DNA from: Peptoniphilus pacaensis
GTDB taxonomy: Bacteria > Bacillota > Clostridia > Tissierellales > Peptoniphilaceae
Direction: 5' to 3'
Assembly: GCF_900088125.1 (NCBI RefSeq)
Contig: NZ_FLQT01000003.1
Location: forward strand, 1,673,071-1,737,070
DNA: 64,000 nt
This document shows, in pieces, positions 26,646 to 32,274 of the stretch. The position numbers and the translations under genes were made by a program. Position 1 is the first letter of the stretch, and each line of letters starts with the position of its first letter. The notes beneath the pieces were generated by a model. That model did no database searches and was not told the origin of the DNA. It saw nothing but the letters and a program-made list of their open reading frames with translations.

Positions 26646-27902
26646 ATGAAAGCTGAGATCATTACTGTAGGGACCGAAATTCTCATCGGATCCATATTAA
26701 ATACCAACGGGCCCTATTTATCCCGAAAGCTCACCGACGTGGGCTACGATGTCTTCTACCACGCTTCGGTAAGGGACAAGTACGAAGCCATTCGGGATGC
26801 CATAGACATCGCCCTGACCCGCTCCGACGTTATTTTTCTCTGCGGCGGTTTAGGACCCACTCAGGACGATATGACGAAGCAGGCCTTGGCCCATGCCCTG
26901 GACTTGGAGCTTATTTTCGATGAAGAACAGTGGGATTACATTCGCAATGTATCCATGAGTTTTTCAAAAAACATTACGGAAAACAACAAGCGGCAGGCGG
27001 AATTTCCCGAAGGCGCCGTGGTCATTCCCAATGCAAAGGGAACGGCGCCGGGCTGTATGCTGAACTACGAGGGCAAGCAATTCTTCATGCTGCCGGGGCC
27101 GCCTCGGGAATTTGAACCCATGGCGGACGATATTGTGGCTAATTACCTGAAGCCCGTTCACGGAAAAAACTTCATCACTTCGCTGCGCCTGGTGAATATC
27201 GGCGAATCGAAGTGTGAATCCATGTTCAGAGCAGCGCAAATCGAAACGGAGCGTGTGGAGATCAACACCTTTGCCAAGAGCGGCGAAGTTGAAATCAAGG
27301 TCATTGCCCACGCCGAAGACGAGGCGGAGGCTGCAGAAATCGAAAAGGAACACACCGAGGCTATTCGCGCCCTACGGGAGCTCTTTGCCGAGTTCATCTA
27401 TGGCGACGGCGAGAAAGACGTCTTCGAAACATTGGTGGATTGCCTCACGCGTGAGAAGATGACCATCAGCTTCGCCGAGTCGGTGACCGGGGGACAGATG
27501 GCCCATATGATCACGTCGGTAGCGGGGGCGAGCAATGTGCTCCACGAAAGCTATATCACTTATAGCGATGCGGTGAAGGAAAAGCTATTGGCCGTGAGTC
27601 CGGAAACCATTGCAAAAGATACCGTCGTATCGGAAGCCGTGGCCACTGAAATGAGCCGCGGTCTTTACGAAAAAACGAAAAGCCGTTACTGTATCGCCAC
27701 CACCGGTGAAGCGGGGCCCGAATCGGCCACGAGAAAAGAAGTCGGCACGGTGATCTATTCCATACGAAAAGACGGAGAAGAAGTGTTGCGGGAAAGCCGA
27801 ATGTTCAAAGGAGATCGAACCACCGTTCAATATCGCAGTTCGAAATACATTTTGGCGCGGATTTTATTACATGAGTTAGGAGAGGGACATGGACGAAAGT
27901 AG
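26646..27902 (+). CDS. cinA: CinA-family nicotinamide-nucleotide amidase / competence-damage protein
   Basis: CinA proteins combine an N-terminal molybdopterin-binding-like (COG1058, ADP-ribose pyrophosphatase-type) domain with a C-terminal NMN deamidase that recycles pyridine nucleotide. The 418-residue product has [18 protein letters not shown] at the N-terminus and [12 protein letters not shown] near 67. The amidase part starts near 255 with [18 protein letters not shown] and includes [10 protein letters not shown]. It precedes recA, as in streptococci and bacilli where the pair is co-transcribed; the two genes overlap by 14 bases. Confidence 0.94.
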
Positions 27903-28920
27903 AAAAAGAGCTTTAGACGATGCCATCGCTAAAATCGAAAAGGAATACGGCAAAGGCGCCATTATGCGTCTCGGCGAAAACGCCAATTTAAATATCGAAT
28001 CGATTCCCACAGGCTCCTTAAGTTTGGACGTGGCGCTGGGGATCGGTGGCATTCCCAGGGGACGGATCATTGAAATTTACGGTCCCGAATCTTCCGGGAA
28101 GACGACGCTTGCCCTACACATGATTGCCGAAGCACAAAAGCTCGGCGGCACGGCGGCCTTTATCGACGCGGAACACGCTTTGGATCCTCAGTACAGCAAA
28201 AACTTGGGCGTGGACACGGAAAATTTAATCATCTCTCAACCGGATACGGGAGAACAGGCCCTTGAAATCACGGAAAGCCTGGTTCGCAGCAACGCCGTGG
28301 ATTTAATCGTCGTGGACTCTGTGGCGGCACTGGTTCCGAAAGCGGAAATCGAAGGGGAAATGGGCGACAGCCATATGGGTCTTCAGGCCCGTCTCATGAG
28401 CCAAGGCTTGAGAAAGCTTACCGGCGCCATCAGCAAATCCAAGGCCTCCGTCATTTTCATAAATCAACTGCGTGAAAAAATCGGCGTCATGTTCGGCAAT
28501 CCGGAAACCACCACCGGCGGCCGCGCCCTTAAATTCTTTACCTCCGTGCGCATGGACATTCGCCGCATCGACAGCTTAAAGAAGGGCGACGAAATTATCG
28601 GCAACCGCGTACGCGTGAAAGTCGTTAAGAACAAAGTGGCGCCGCCCTTCAAGAAAGCCGAATTCGATATTATGTACGGCACGGGTATTTCAAAGGTAGG
28701 CTCCGTCTTGGATGCCGCCGTGGAAGCGGGCATTATTGAAAAATCCGGCTCCTGGTTCAGCTACGGCGATGCAAAACTCGGTCAAGGACGTGAAAATTCC
28801 AAGGCCTATTTGCTGGAAAATCCCGATTTATTAAAGGACATCGACGAAAAAGTGCGCATCCACTACCACATGGGCGAGCACAAGGAAAGCAGCGAAGGCG
28901 TGCCCTCCGAGGAGGAATAA
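27889..28920 (+). CDS. recA: recombinase RecA
   Basis: RecA forms filaments on single-stranded DNA, promotes strand exchange and activates LexA self-cleavage. The 343-residue product has Walker [10 protein letters not shown] near 66, Walker [12 protein letters not shown] near 140, the DNA-binding loops and [26 protein letters not shown] precedes the ATG, which lies within the end of cinA. I saw no LexA operator immediately upstream, so SOS induction, if any, would come from a promoter further up. It is followed by a ribosome site and the SbcD-like gene. Confidence 0.99.
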
Positions 28921-28923
28921 AAT

Positions 28924-29904
28924 TTGAAATTCCTGTACTTCACAGATAGTCACATTCGAGGAACGAATCCGAAATCCAGAACGGATTCGTTTTTCCATAC
29001 GGTCAAAATTAAATTACAGGAGATTCAATCCATCGCTGCCGAAGAAAAAGTCCACGCCATTTTACATGGCGGCGATCTTTTCGATCGACCCGACGTATCG
29101 ATTTCGGTTATGAACGAAATCATTCCGATTTTAAAATCTTTCACGGCGCCGATTTATGCCATTAGCGGCAATCACGATATTTACGGGCACAATCCCATCA
29201 CCCTGCCCAGGACCATGATGGGCCTTTTGGATACCTTGGGGATTATTCACCTGATCAACAATCAGCGCTTTCTTTTAAAGGACGAAGAGACCGTGGTTCA
29301 ATTAAGCGGTTCTCCCTATATTTACGGGATCGACAGGGAGGAGAATCGCGCCCTCTATATCGTCGAGGAGCGAGACCCTTTGGCGGATTACGCCATTCAT
29401 TTGGTCCACGGCTTCCTGATGACCGGCGATGTAAAGGCCATATTTGCAAACACTCTGATCGACGATATTTTAGACACCAAGGCGGATCTGACTCTGTCCG
29501 GCCATTTACACGACGGTTTCCCGACGACAGAGGTAGAGGGAAAGGTCTTCGCCAATCCCGGCGCCGTTGTTCGAATTTCAAATTCCATGACGGAGCTTAA
29601 GCGGCGCCCGAAAGTTTTACTTATCGACGTGAAGAAAAACAGTGCCACCATTACGGAGCGTTATTTAAAATCCGCACGACCAGGATCGGAAATTTTAGAC
29701 CGAACGGAAATCGAGATGCACAAATTTAAGCGCAGGGAGTTGGCCGAGTTTAAGGAATCCATCGATCGCACGGGAAATTACGACCGCATTAATTTCTTTG
29801 ACCTGCTCGCCGATATTTCCGCCAACGAAAAACTGGATCCGGCCATCAAAGAAGAAGCCATGGCACGCATCGCCCAAGTACAGGAGAGGAGGAGCGGCAT
29901 TTGA
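28924..29904 (+). CDS. SbcD/Mre11-like metallophosphoesterase (nuclease)
   Basis: The 326-residue product is a calcineurin-like phosphoesterase with all five motifs of Mre11/SbcD nucleases: FTDSHIRG (D8, H10), GGDLFDRP (D51), SGNHD (82-85), LVHG (H162) and GHLHDG (193-196). SbcD forms a complex with the SbcC/Rad50 ATPase and processes DNA ends and hairpins. Here the ATPase parts follow at once, overlapping by four bases, so a joint nuclease complex is very likely. TTG start with GAGGAGGAAT upstream, three bases after recA. It is shorter than E. coli SbcD (400). Confidence 0.88.
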   Translation: MKFLYFTDSHIRGTNPKSRTDSFFHTVKIKLQEIQSIAAEEKVHAILHGGDLFDRPDVSISVMNEIIPILKSFTAPIYAISGNHDIYGHNPITLPRTMMGLLDTLGIIHLINNQRFLLKDEETVVQLSGSPYIYGIDREENRALYIVEERDPLADYAIHLVHGFLMTGDVKAIFANTLIDDILDTKADLTLSGHLHDGFPTTEVEGKVFANPGAVVRISNSMTELKRRPKVLLIDVKKNSATITERYLKSARPGSEILDRTEIEMHKFKRRELAEFKESIDRTGNYDRINFFDLLADISANEKLDPAIKEEAMARIAQVQERRSGI

Positions 29905-31340
29905 ATTTTATCGAAAAAATTATTCTCGTCAATTTTCAATCCCATGTCTACTCCGAACTTTGCCTCTCCCGCGGCGTCAACGTCATCGTAGGCCCTTCCG
30001 ACAGCGGCAAGACAGCCATTATGCGCGCCCTGCGCTGGAATATGTTTAACGATCCTTCCGGCGTGGAATTCGTTCGGGAAGGGGAGTCGGAGGTATCGGT
30101 CACCGTACGCTTTCAAAACAACGTAGAGGTGGAGCGGCGTCGCAGCCGTTCGAAGAATCAATATATTTTGCGTCGCCCGGACGAAAAGGAGCTCGTTTTC
30201 GAAGGCTTCGGAAAGAATGTGCCGGCAGAAATCGAAGAGGCCACCGGCATCAAAAAAATCATGCTGGACGACAAGAAGTCCTTGCCTTTAAACTTTGCCG
30301 ACCAACTGGACGGTCCCTTTCTGCTTCAGGAAACCGACGCCTATAAGGCCCAGGCCATCGGCCGCATGGTGGGCGTCGATCTTTTAGACGAGACCATGCG
30401 CGATACCTTGCGGGATAAAAAACAGATCTCTATTCACCGGGAATTGATGGAAAAAGATCTCGAGGAAACGGAAGAGTCCCTGAAGGCTTTTTCCGACTTA
30501 GATGATCAAATTGTTTTACGTGAAAAAATTAAGAACATCCTGTCCTCTGTATCGGATCTAAAGGAAAAAACGGAGACGGCCAAAACTTGCGCCGAAGCAC
30601 TGAAGGAAATTAAAAAAGAACGCGTCCTAACCAATGACCTGTTATCTCGCTACGCCGTATTGGATCTACTTCAAGACAAGCTGGTGCACTTGCGGCGAAA
30701 TGTCGATGATTATCGAAGTGAACGTCTGCTTTTCGATCTGTTTATGCAAAATCAGCAGGCGCGAAAAGAGACGAAATACCAACTCTCTCTCTACGAAAAT
30801 GTCGATCTCCTGGAAACAAATCTGACGCAATTGTCGGCAGTCAAGGCTACATACGACGGTATCTTGCCCGAATTTAATCGCATGAAATCCATTTGTGAGG
30901 CAGAGAAAGCTAATGAAGTCATGTTGCAGGAAACGAAAGGTGTTTTTGACGTGGAGGCCATGGATCTCCGGAAGAAATACGCCGCTTTTTGCGATTACAG
31001 CCGTACTCTGGAAGCCTTCAAAGAACTAAAGCTTCGAATGGAGAAGGGGAAACTGTTTCTCTCTCGATTCGATCAACTGGATCGGTTGGCCGAACTAAAC
31101 GCTGAAATTAGTGAAATAATGGTGAAAGAGCGTTCCGTTGAAGCATTAAAAAACGACCAAAGACGTTTAAGGGATGAGAAAAATAAAAAGGCTGTCGAAT
31201 TGAAAAAGTTGATCGAGGGCGACCGACAGGCAATGAATGCTTACCTGGAATGTCTCTCCCACGCCGGCACTTGCCCCTTGTGCAAGCAGACCATCGACTA
31301 CGAGGCGCTTCACGCCATTAAGCACAGTTTGGAGGATTAG
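29901..31340 (+). CDS. SbcC/Rad50-like ATPase, N-terminal part with zinc hook
   Basis: The 479-residue product starts like Rad50/SbcC/RecF proteins (IEKIILVNFQSHVYSEL) and has Walker A GPSDSGKT at 31-38 and an arginine-rich strand near 85. A Q-loop-like DQLDGPFLLQETDA lies near 140. From about 180 it is heptad-rich coiled coil. At the very end is CPLC (C458, C461), placed as in the zinc hook at the tip of the Rad50 coil, then 18 residues and a stop. No signature, Walker B or His loop is present; these are in the third gene downstream. It is thus half of a composite ATPase. Confidence 0.85.
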   Translation: MNFIEKIILVNFQSHVYSELCLSRGVNVIVGPSDSGKTAIMRALRWNMFNDPSGVEFVREGESEVSVTVRFQNNVEVERRRSRSKNQYILRRPDEKELVFEGFGKNVPAEIEEATGIKKIMLDDKKSLPLNFADQLDGPFLLQETDAYKAQAIGRMVGVDLLDETMRDTLRDKKQISIHRELMEKDLEETEESLKAFSDLDDQIVLREKIKNILSSVSDLKEKTETAKTCAEALKEIKKERVLTNDLLSRYAVLDLLQDKLVHLRRNVDDYRSERLLFDLFMQNQQARKETKYQLSLYENVDLLETNLTQLSAVKATYDGILPEFNRMKSICEAEKANEVMLQETKGVFDVEAMDLRKKYAAFCDYSRTLEAFKELKLRMEKGKLFLSRFDQLDRLAELNAEISEIMVKERSVEALKNDQRRLRDEKNKKAVELKKLIEGDRQAMNAYLECLSHAGTCPLCKQTIDYEALHAIKHSLED

Positions 31341-31580
31341 ATGAACTTAGAACAACGGATCAGCGATCTGAATCAACGCTATGAGCAGGCTAAGGACACA
31401 AGAAAGCGCGCCGAATGGCGTATGGAAGAGCTGGAAAGGGAGGAGAAGGAGCTAAACGCGAAAATCAAAGCCTTGGGCTTTGACCCCGACACCTTGGAAG
31501 AAGAGATCGAGCGGATGGAAGGGGAGATCATTCGCCTGTTAGATGAAGCGGAAAAACTCCTTCCCGAGGATCGGTCATGA
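31341..31580 (+). CDS. 79-residue coiled-coil protein of the split SbcC-like set
   Basis: The short product (MNLEQRISDLNQRYEQAKD...) is nearly all predicted coiled coil, rich in Glu, Lys and Arg, with one small break at GFDPDT (residues 46-51). I do not know it as a named family. It begins directly after the TAG of the zinc-hook gene and in the same frame, but has its own GGAGG 5 bases before the ATG, so it looks like an independent gene. It overlaps the next gene as ATGA. By position it corresponds to the returning coil strand after the hook of a one-piece SbcC. Confidence 0.75.
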   Translation: MNLEQRISDLNQRYEQAKDTRKRAEWRMEELEREEKELNAKIKALGFDPDTLEEEIERMEGEIIRLLDEAEKLLPEDRS

Positions 31581-32263
31581 CCTACGACGATGTTTGCCGG
31601 CGTTTCGATGATTTTTCAAAGGAAGTTAACCGACGGGAGGGCATACGAGACTCGATTGAGGAGCAGATTGAAAAAAAGAAGAGCGAGATAGAAGCAGTGG
31701 AAGAGGAGGAGAAGAAGCTAAACGGCGTGGTTTTTCTCCTGCAAAAGGCGGCGGATTTTTCGAGAAATCAGGCGACTCACCAGATCGAAGACATCGTCAC
31801 TCAATCCATCGCCTATATTATGCAAAACAGCTCGAAATTTATCGTGGACCTTTCCGAAAAGCGCGGCCTGCCCATTGCGGAATTTTTCGTCGAATCCGAT
31901 TACGGCGACTACAAAGTCAAGACGAAGCCGGAATTAAGTCGAGGCGGCGGCGTGGTAGATATCGTCAGCCTCGCCCTTCGCATTGCATTTTTGGAAAATC
32001 ATCGGCCGAAAATGGACGGCCCTCTTTTTCTCGACGAGCCTGGCAAACACATTAGCGACGATTACATTTTTAACATGGGCGAATTTTTAAAGGAATGTTC
32101 CCGCCTTTTTTCCAGGCAGATCATCATGGTCACGCACAACGATTACCTGACCAATATTTGCGACAAAGCCTTTCGCGTAGACATACGAAACGGCACCAGC
32201 GAGGTAACTGAAGTAATCGACGATGCTGAGGAAAATGAAATAGTAAATGGACCGCTTGCGTAA
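31577..32263 (+). CDS. SbcC/Rad50-like ATPase, C-terminal part
   Basis: The 228-residue product has about 60 residues of coiled coil, then the second half of an ABC-type ATPase head: the signature LSRGGGVVDIVSLALRIAF (120-138; SRGGG replaces the usual SGGE), Walker B PLFLDEP with the catalytic D153/E154, and the His loop VTHND (H187). There is no Walker A. Together with the gene at 29.9 kb it makes one complete head. GAGGA lies 6 bases before the ATG. A terminator overlaps the last codons, ending the ftsK-to-here unit. Confidence 0.85.
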   Translation: MTYDDVCRRFDDFSKEVNRREGIRDSIEEQIEKKKSEIEAVEEEEKKLNGVVFLLQKAADFSRNQATHQIEDIVTQSIAYIMQNSSKFIVDLSEKRGLPIAEFFVESDYGDYKVKTKPELSRGGGVVDIVSLALRIAFLENHRPKMDGPLFLDEPGKHISDDYIFNMGEFLKECSRLFSRQIIMVTHNDYLTNICDKAFRVDIRNGTSEVTEVIDDAEENEIVNGPLA

Positions 32264-32274
32264 GCGGTCTTTTT
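32250..32274 (+). terminator. intrinsic terminator overlapping the end of the SbcC-like C-part gene
   Basis: GACCGCTT (32250-32257) pairs with AAGCGGTC (32262-32269), loop GCGT, followed by five T residues. The stop codon of the upstream gene lies within the loop and 3' arm. Confidence 0.85.

Follow-up and report, generated by a model that had tools for sequence, protein, structure and literature searches.

In a 64,000-nucleotide stretch of the Peptoniphilus pacaensis genome (contig NZ_FLQT01000003.1, positions 1,673,071 to 1,737,070), hereafter called the window, four adjacent genes, designated MPE, NH, SM and CH, very probably encode a split Mre11-Rad50 complex of the SbcCD type that stands in place of canonical SbcCD in this lineage, with an ATPase head formed by NH and CH together and a single-strand, modular arm supplied by NH. 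We put the probability of this reading at roughly 85%. Rad50/SbcC proteins are described as one chain, the ends of which meet in the head and the middle of which forms the arm. In a literature search whose scope left preprints and most subscription journals outside, no paper describing a split Rad50 or SbcC was found, and no such split is mentioned in the consulted parts of PMC3175470, PMC7824862, PMC2147016, PMC6375668 and PMC12153180. The genes and their motifs are as follows (positions in the window; aa, amino acids).

28924..29904, plus strand: MPE, an Mre11/SbcD-type calcineurin-like phosphoesterase of 326 aa with a TTG start, overlapping NH by 4 bp
29901..31340, plus strand: NH, the N-terminal Rad50 half, 479 aa with a TTG start, carrying Walker A, presumed Q-loop, modular helical arm and CPxC hook
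31341..31580, plus strand: SM, a small protein of 79 aa, helical by reading of its sequence, with a conserved break around GxxP, overlapping CH by 4 bp
31577..32263, plus strand: CH, the C-terminal Rad50 half, 228 aa, carrying signature, Walker B and His switch
29991..30014, plus strand: Walker A GPSDSGKT (NH residues 31-38); G31, G36 and K37 are invariant in the 77 rows of alignment A5
30303..30305, plus strand: Q-loop residue Gln135 of NH, presumed from the analogy to Rad50; invariant in the 77 rows of A5 and Q in 165 of 169 rows
30372..31271, plus strand: NH arm (residues 158-457), about six tandem helical modules of ~47 aa, from lag-47 and lag-94 profile autocorrelation
31272..31283, plus strand: CPLC zinc-hook motif (NH residues 458-461); C458, P459 and C461 are invariant in the 77 rows of A5
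31937..31951, plus strand: diverged ABC signature SRGGG (CH residues 121-125); G123, G124 and G125 occur in 172, 172 and 173 of 175 rows
32024..32041, plus strand: Walker B LFLDEP (CH residues 150-155); D153 and E154 occur in 175 of 175 rows
32135..32137, plus strand: His switch H187 of CH (THN); present in 174 of 175 rows, with one gap

We compared the window with related loci, 168 in total, comprising the best 80 of 164 chromosomal loci confirmed in a scan of named genomes (a set biased towards the window), the best 80 of 90 loci on viral contigs, and eight phage or plasmid loci, of which L039 and L049 represent the same phage. CH was present in 167 of the 168 loci (161 distinct proteins), and NH and CH lay in one frame in 0 of these 167. 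A continuous gene in close relatives, which the sequence-only reading had named as the observation that would overturn it, was looked for and not encountered. The split recurs in bacteria, phages and plasmids, and these comparisons confirm that it is real and old and that it is conserved in relatives. As that reading had also proposed, the chain is cut just after the hook, the CPLC motif occupying residues 458-461 of NH and the C-terminal head lobe being carried by a separate gene; the motif is not strictly terminal, as had been said, since 18 residues follow it in the 479-residue protein.

Conservation of the motifs was examined in the NH alignment A5 (the window and 76 of 81 references; L039, L040, L042, L046 and L143 left out), in alignment A6 (the window and 45 of 53 references; L039, L041-L044, L046, L109 and L118 left out) and in alignment A7 (the window and 46 of 49 references; L039, L040 and L042 left out), the references having been limited beforehand by length (NH 420-545 aa) and redundancy, as well as in wider sets of 169 NH rows and 175 CH rows that include near-copies. 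MPE contains the phosphoesterase motifs DSH, GGD, GNHD, VHG and GHLH; in 147 rows, D8, H10 and D51 were conserved in 145 (with 2 gaps), H162 and H196 in all 147, and H194 in 139, which bears out the proposed Mre11-type nuclease. The Walker A columns were found in 142 of the 169 wider NH rows, the other 27 comprising one broken frame (L136) and 26 frames truncated where a short stretch ends; thus all 142 rows long enough to show the motif carry it, and the Walker A pattern was found in 0 of 175 CH rows. The ABC motifs accordingly partition cleanly: NH has Walker A together with the presumed Q-loop, whereas CH has the signature, Walker B, the D-loop Ser and the His switch. The description of the last protein as one with signature, Walker B and His loop, and without Walker A, was thus correct, the signature being the diverged SRGGG. 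The distribution of the ATPase over three genes was not: the ATPase proper is encoded by two, NH and CH, and no ATPase motif is present in SM.

Profile searches gave matches of varying strength. In Pfam, MPE matched Metallophos (3e-12) and NH matched AAA_23 (1.8e-14), and the best NCBIfam matches were those of NH to Rad50 PRK03918 (1.4e-15) and of MPE to Mre11_Sulfo (2.3e-9); CH had weak ABC matches only in both databases. In PHROGs, NH and CH had strong matches to two separate families, phrog_16465 (3.6e-61) and phrog_15167 (5.1e-58), and SM matched a third, phrog_18563 (1.9e-6). These families are described as exonuclease, ATPase and unknown function, respectively, and the descriptions consulted do not join them as one split protein; a split Rad50 would explain why such phage 'exonuclease' and 'ATPase' genes look like half proteins.

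We analyzed the head using AlphaFold models of NH (from a 77-row alignment) and CH (from a 46-row alignment). The CH model (mean predicted local distance difference test, pLDDT, 92.9; predicted template modelling score, pTM, 0.75) matched the C lobe of Pyrococcus furiosus Rad50 over residues 38-214 (9a9j_B: Z 14.9, root-mean-square deviation (rmsd) 3.6, 165 aligned residues), as well as residues 738-882 of 1f2u_B (Z 14.7, rmsd 2.3, 143 aligned). The NH model (pLDDT 84.2, pTM 0.36) matched the N lobe over residues 2-188 (9a9j_A: Z 12.2, rmsd 4.6, 177 aligned), as well as residues 1-148 of 1f2u_C (Z 13.1, rmsd 2.9, 131 aligned). NH and CH are thus predicted to fold as complementary lobes of one Rad50 head, and the separate models agree with the expectation that the two ATPase halves would match a joint head, which NH and CH would presumably form in solution. 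The solved Rad50 heads 1f2u, 3qkr and 9a9j are listed with one chain per lobe, and the natural split resembles these constructs of crystallographers. Lobe-per-chain Rad50 constructs reconstitute ATPase activity.

The arm was analyzed in terms of its hook, its length and its periodicity. Of the 147 loci whose NH has at least 280 aa, 144 carry a CxxC motif within the last 130 residues of that protein, as do 75 of 75 chromosomal loci, the exceptions being L045, the broken L053 and L118; the NH frame in the viral locus L118 is 785 aa long, far longer than the others. Where NH was at least 400 aa long and had a CxxC near its end, the motif was CPxC in 123 of 123 proteins, the first Cys lying 8-28 residues from the C-terminus, with one at 48. 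The predicted helices of NH (residues 159-195, 200-251, 253-297, 301-344, 353-388 and 393-455) are interrupted at intervals of about 40-55 residues, the breaks coinciding with a pooled 'LxKLKNI' motif or lying close to it. The length from G158 to the CxxC, obtained for 135 arms, peaked at 255 (5 arms), 302 (65) and 348 aa (14), with a loose group at 197-205 aa (7). Overall, 118 of the 135 arms, and 116 of the 123 arms of at least 240 aa, fell within 3 aa of 20+47n, for which an even spread predicts 15%. In the 302 class (n = 92), lag 47 ranked first and lag 94 next in the autocorrelation, and the same was observed when its 69 chromosomal and 23 viral or plasmid members were taken apart; in the 255 class (n = 7), lag 47 ranked first and lag 94 third. 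Heptad-block shuffles reached the observed top lag in 0 of 300 trials in each of the 255, 302 and 349 classes. The ~47-aa period is thus a family signal.

We further compared the arm with that of canonical SbcC. Arm length did not vary with CH length (rho 0.005, P = 0.95, n = 114) or with SM length (rho –0.14, P = 0.15, n = 110), whereas in a control set of 16 one-piece SbcCs from relatives (17 were available; that of G055, which runs over two contigs, was left out) the lengths of the upward and downward strands were tightly correlated (rho 0.93). Each of these SbcCs is one chain, 880-1185 aa long, with matched arms, and in the six of similar arm length no period was detected, 155 and 158 of 300 shuffles reaching the top lag. 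Because the length of the NH arm varies without SM or CH, unlike the strands of SbcC, this arm is not the usual matched hairpin. Arms of five, six and seven modules all occur, and in a strict up-and-down zigzag every additional module would shift the hook between tip and base. For this reason an extended arm is favored, most simply one that pairs with its counterpart in the other protomer; several copies of SM tiling the NH arm would be the main alternative to such pairing. A profile comparison revealed no similarity of SM to a module or to the arm (probability 0.6% and 0.9%), and SM was rejected as an extra arm module; an 18% profile match to the descending arm of SbcC was too weak to be trusted, and that identity was likewise set aside.

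These results bear on the strongest rival explanation, also put forward by the sequence-only reading, that an ordinary Rad50 coil is rebuilt from three chains, with SM and the N-terminal helix of CH forming the descending strand opposite NH. NH does contain the hook motif and the start of a descending helix, CH opens with an 80-residue helix, SM looks helical, and in 79 of 80 chromosomal loci no more than 60 bp separate SM from the CH gene downstream of it. However, the NH arm measures ~300 aa compared with ~140 for SM (79) and the free CH helix (~58, an estimate) together, and it varies by whole modules while the lengths of SM and CH stay as they are. We therefore consider this arrangement unlikely, the tiling of the arm by several SM copies being the form in which it might survive.

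Taken as a split complex with a single-strand arm, the system would work as follows. NH, contributing Walker A and the Q-loop, and CH, contributing the signature, Walker B, D-loop and His switch, would join into one ABC head in the manner of Rad50 lobes, and two such heads may hold ATP between them and control the MPE nuclease, which would nick or resect DNA ends and hairpins and so feed RecA. The arm would consist of one NH strand, built from helical modules of ~47 aa with the CPxC hook at its end and probably paired with the NH strand of a second protomer; having no partner strand within its own protomer, it would be able to change length by whole modules. The most likely role of SM is that of a clamp holding the arm, at its base, against the N-terminal helix of CH. 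The function is most likely equivalent to that of SbcCD. More tentatively, and with rather less confidence than doubt, we suggest a wider model in which paired NH strands run from heads to hooks, about four to seven modules set the length, and CH is a detachable head subunit kept in place by SM, allowing regulated assembly of the head; phages would be the source of the split form, which insertion of a homing endonuclease at the hook might have created, and from them it would have passed into the chromosomes of Firmicutes, beside recA, and displaced SbcCD.

With respect to known systems, the full Rad50/SbcC set of Walker A, signature, Walker B and His switch is present, spread over two chains, and a CxxC hook follows a long arm of predicted helices. 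Two further hallmarks of the family are absent: the head lobes do not share a polypeptide in any of the CH-bearing loci, and a two-strand arm of matched lengths is not indicated by the length data, the predicted geometry being poorly defined. Because it departs from the family in the single chain and in the matched arm strands, we class the system as a variant of Mre11-Rad50. It shares with archaeal-type Mre11-Rad50 the nuclease motifs, the order of ABC motifs, the folds of the Rad50 lobes, the CPxC hook and, in the window, adjacent nuclease and ATPase genes, and differs from it in the two-chain head, the additional SM, the one-chain arm of ~47-aa repeats, the SRGGG signature and the sub-cut-off scores. 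With bacterial SbcCD (TIGR00618/TIGR00619) it shares the predicted role, the hook motif and the phosphoesterase partner.

We next considered the distribution of the split form and of canonical SbcCD in 61 genomes, that is, the P. pacaensis genome and 60 relatives. The split form was counted at an E-value for CH below 1e-30, and G018, G029 and G030, in which the CH match was weak (E about 1e-4), were dropped. The cut-off of the SbcC model TIGR00618 was reached in 0 of the 61 genomes, including the canonical ones (10 candidates per genome scored), and SbcC was therefore counted by strong partial matches beside SbcD. The split form was found in 35 genomes, a full SbcD with SbcC matches beside it in 17, both in one (G014) and neither in 10 (Fisher test, P = 3.5e-7, a value inflated by kinship). 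Three genomes in which SbcD exceeded the cut-off by summed pieces only (G022, G043 and G059) were not counted as canonical; when they were, SbcD occurred in 20 of 61, both systems in one, the split form only in 34, SbcD only in 19 and neither in 7. Among 243 genomes of the class (at least 90% completeness requested), 20 from 6 families had the split form, 109 had SbcD and one had both (P = 8e-5, likewise inflated). Of 12 genomes reached through split loci, two had SbcD, both of them Bacillaceae. Replacement of SbcCD is thus a tendency and not a rule, the exclusion being strong in Tissierellia and relatives, and the split complex is a candidate for the SbcCD function in many Firmicutes (Peptoniphilus, Tissierella and others) that lack canonical sbcCD by profile search.

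The P. pacaensis genome itself agreed with this tendency: the separate one-piece sbcCD that the sequence-only reading had proposed to look for was not found by profile search, and no SbcD exceeded the cut-off. For AddA, no match exceeded the cut-off and only partial helicase-type matches were obtained; a 967-aa frame at C3:241309-243465 has partial, below-cut-off AddA matches. The other strong AAA_23 matches in this genome were SMC, a YhaN/YhaO-like pair and RecN/RecF-like proteins, labels given partly by reading. The best of them, a 1249-aa frame in the stretch C3:1759000-1772000 (L207), could be mistaken for a one-piece SbcC and reads as an smc-like gene beside rnc- and ftsY-like genes. A 583-aa protein next to a second phosphoesterase was rejected as SbcC in the same way, as the two look like YhaN/YhaO, which we presume them to be.

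Several observations weigh against a split Mre11-Rad50 complex replacing SbcCD as formulated above. The scores to all SbcC, SbcD, Rad50 and Mre11 models are far below the curated cut-offs (for MPE, 30.2 bits against 77.65 for sbcd and 37 against 500 for Mre11_Sulfo), and the signature of CH is diverged. The pTM of NH leaves the arm geometry undefined, the NH lobe matches SMC as well as Rad50 (1xex_A, Z 13.2) and RecF nearly so, meaning that the modelled fold of NH by itself would not name the family, and the joint head is argued from homology. As for the arm, many of the measured lengths come from near relatives or near-identical viral contigs, notably in the 348 group; the top lag of the 349 class (n = 21) was 139, followed by 47 and 94; the ~200 class (n = 7, 197-205 aa) had no significant period (116 of 300 shuffles reached its top lag); and lag 47 was not the best period in the NH of the window alone. 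As for the replacement, related genomes were counted as independent in the Fisher tests and some genomes belong to both samples, kinship inflating both P-values; two of three Bacillaceae genomes checked have both systems; and neither system was found in 10 of 61 genomes (7 of 61 with the three weaker SbcD matches counted).

A role in defense (Lamassu- or Gabija-like) or in a mobile element, and not in house-keeping repair, was also considered. A Lamassu system has an LmuA effector and LmuC beside the SMC-like LmuB. PADLOC matched NH to LmuB (9.9e-14) and CH to mad3 (2.1e-11), and relatives occur in phages and plasmids. However, these matches look like a shared ABC fold; no LmuA- or LmuC-type match was obtained among the four proteins, on which PADLOC was run with the neighborhood left unscanned; the 80 chromosomal loci form nearly one clade, and in 72 of them at most 250 bp separate recA from the MPE gene downstream of it (recA is farther away in two, and in six there is neither a recA nor room for one in the stretch); and the split form is nearly exclusive of SbcCD in both genome samples. 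We regard such a role as improbable.

We also considered the origin of the split form. On a tree of CH (159 rows), the chromosomal copies required 2 changes, compared with 52.9 in shuffles, and the viral rows were deeper and more diverse; the tree is midpoint-rooted with many long branches, and its chromosomal set was picked by similarity to the window. This pattern would be consistent with a phage origin. recA lies upstream in some viral loci too (L046, L100, L101, L104, L108 and L116). Of eight viral or phage open reading frames (ORFs) lying between NH and SM, two had an HNH_3 match (L039 and L067, both below the Pfam cut-off), one was a primase and five had no match; in Bacillus phage vB_BboS-125, a gene annotated as an AP2 domain protein, with a sub-threshold HNH match, occupies this place. 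Insertion of an HNH gene as the cause of the split is only a hint. In L046 and L100, MPE also lies inside the NH-SM stretch. The primase-like ORF of L100 (6000-6677, between MPE and SM) matches DNAG_N and Toprim, and similar-looking ORFs occur in L092, L097, L101, L103 and L104.

In five loci (L041, L043, L047, L057 and L062), MPE and NH are fused in one frame and CH is a separate gene, which recalls the Mre11/Rad50 fusions (Mimivirus R555 and others) reported in the consulted part of PMC3175470. That part also describes fusions from Bacillus phage 0305phi8-36 and Anaerostipes without one P-loop segment. Unlike the fusions as presented there, the split locus L062 (a contig of 218,948 bp) has CH as a separate downstream gene, and an MPE-NH fusion with a separate CH may explain the published fusions that lack a P-loop segment.

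The halves can also be far apart. NH lay outside the fetched stretch in 14 of the 80 viral loci; it was found elsewhere on the contig in six of them, about 19-92 kb from CH by linear-contig arithmetic, and was not found in the other eight records, any of which may be incomplete. The two halves are genes 2 (CH) and 155 (NH) of Microbacterium phage Magritte. Of the earlier suggestion that the halves could be swapped, regulated or lost independently, the unlinking is therefore seen in this phage and in viral contigs, and no instance of swapping or independent loss was shown.

It is very improbable that the pieces are rejoined in translation, through read-through of the NH-SM stop and a frameshift between SM and CH, to yield a working protein of one chain. 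The TAG that is followed directly by ATG between NH and SM, the ATGA overlap of SM and CH, and a SM-CH gap mostly in one frame (52 of 78 chromosomal loci), a preference that overlapping stop-start pairs also give, fit such a mechanism. However, the NH-SM spacing is not conserved, the NH-SM gap is spread over the three frames (24/21/33 of 78) and each of the three stop codons is used by NH (38 TAA, 26 TAG and 14 TGA), which makes a conserved re-fusion of NH and SM unlikely, and in phages the halves are distant from each other or separated by other genes.

A frameshift, an assembly error or a decaying pseudogene of a one-piece SbcC can be practically dismissed: NH and SM are parted by a single in-frame TAG in the window, and further broken frames occur in a few relatives, but no NH+CH frame exists in any CH locus, the reading frames are separate and differ in phase and stop codon among loci, six viral contigs have unlinked halves, and the ratios of nonsynonymous to synonymous substitution rates (dN/dS) are well below 1 in all four genes. 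These ratios (NG86, pairwise against Aedoeadaptatus urinae, L127) were 0.06 for MPE, 0.14 for NH, 0.03 for SM and 0.09 for CH, compared with 0.02, 0.03 and 0.06 for recA, rny and cinA; together with the strong PHROGs matches, they indicate that the four ORFs are not due to chance. In comparisons with L128, L131 and L133, which are more distant, several dS values were saturated or undefined and the dN/dS of NH reached 0.23. NH is the least conserved of the four genes. The broken frames, of MPE in L151 and L167 and of NH in L136 and L158, come from genomes or metagenome-assembled genomes and could reflect sequencing error or decay. A Peptoniphilus harei contig of 6466 bp (L160) carries fragments of CH and NH in inverted arrangement, and an intact locus (L147) is present in the same record; the inversion could be an assembly artefact or a rearrangement.

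A natural two-piece head and a countable arm make two questions about this family testable: whether hook-to-head signalling depends on the physical connection that the arm provides between the lobes, and what effect the length of the arm has, the natural lengths being spaced in steps of ~47 residues.

Two further features flank the four genes in the window.

27889..28920, plus strand: recA, the usual neighbor, directly upstream of MPE with a 3-bp gap
32249..32270, plus strand: a terminator-like hairpin of 9 pairs followed by a T-rich tail, at the end of CH and before rny

The order is thus recA, MPE, NH, SM, CH, hairpin and rny, with tightly packed ORFs, all four lying where they had been placed, directly behind recA; a purine-rich, Shine-Dalgarno-like stretch was read by eye just 5' of each of the four starts. 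Because of the hairpin, which has the longest stem among 12 terminator-like sites in the region (6.8 expected), MPE, NH, SM and CH appear to belong to the recA transcript rather than to that of rny. Among the 80 chromosomal loci, a downstream rny has the same orientation as the four genes in 60 and the reverse orientation in 8, and in 12 the stretch does not include rny. The closest named relatives of CH are from Aedoeadaptatus and Peptoniphilus.

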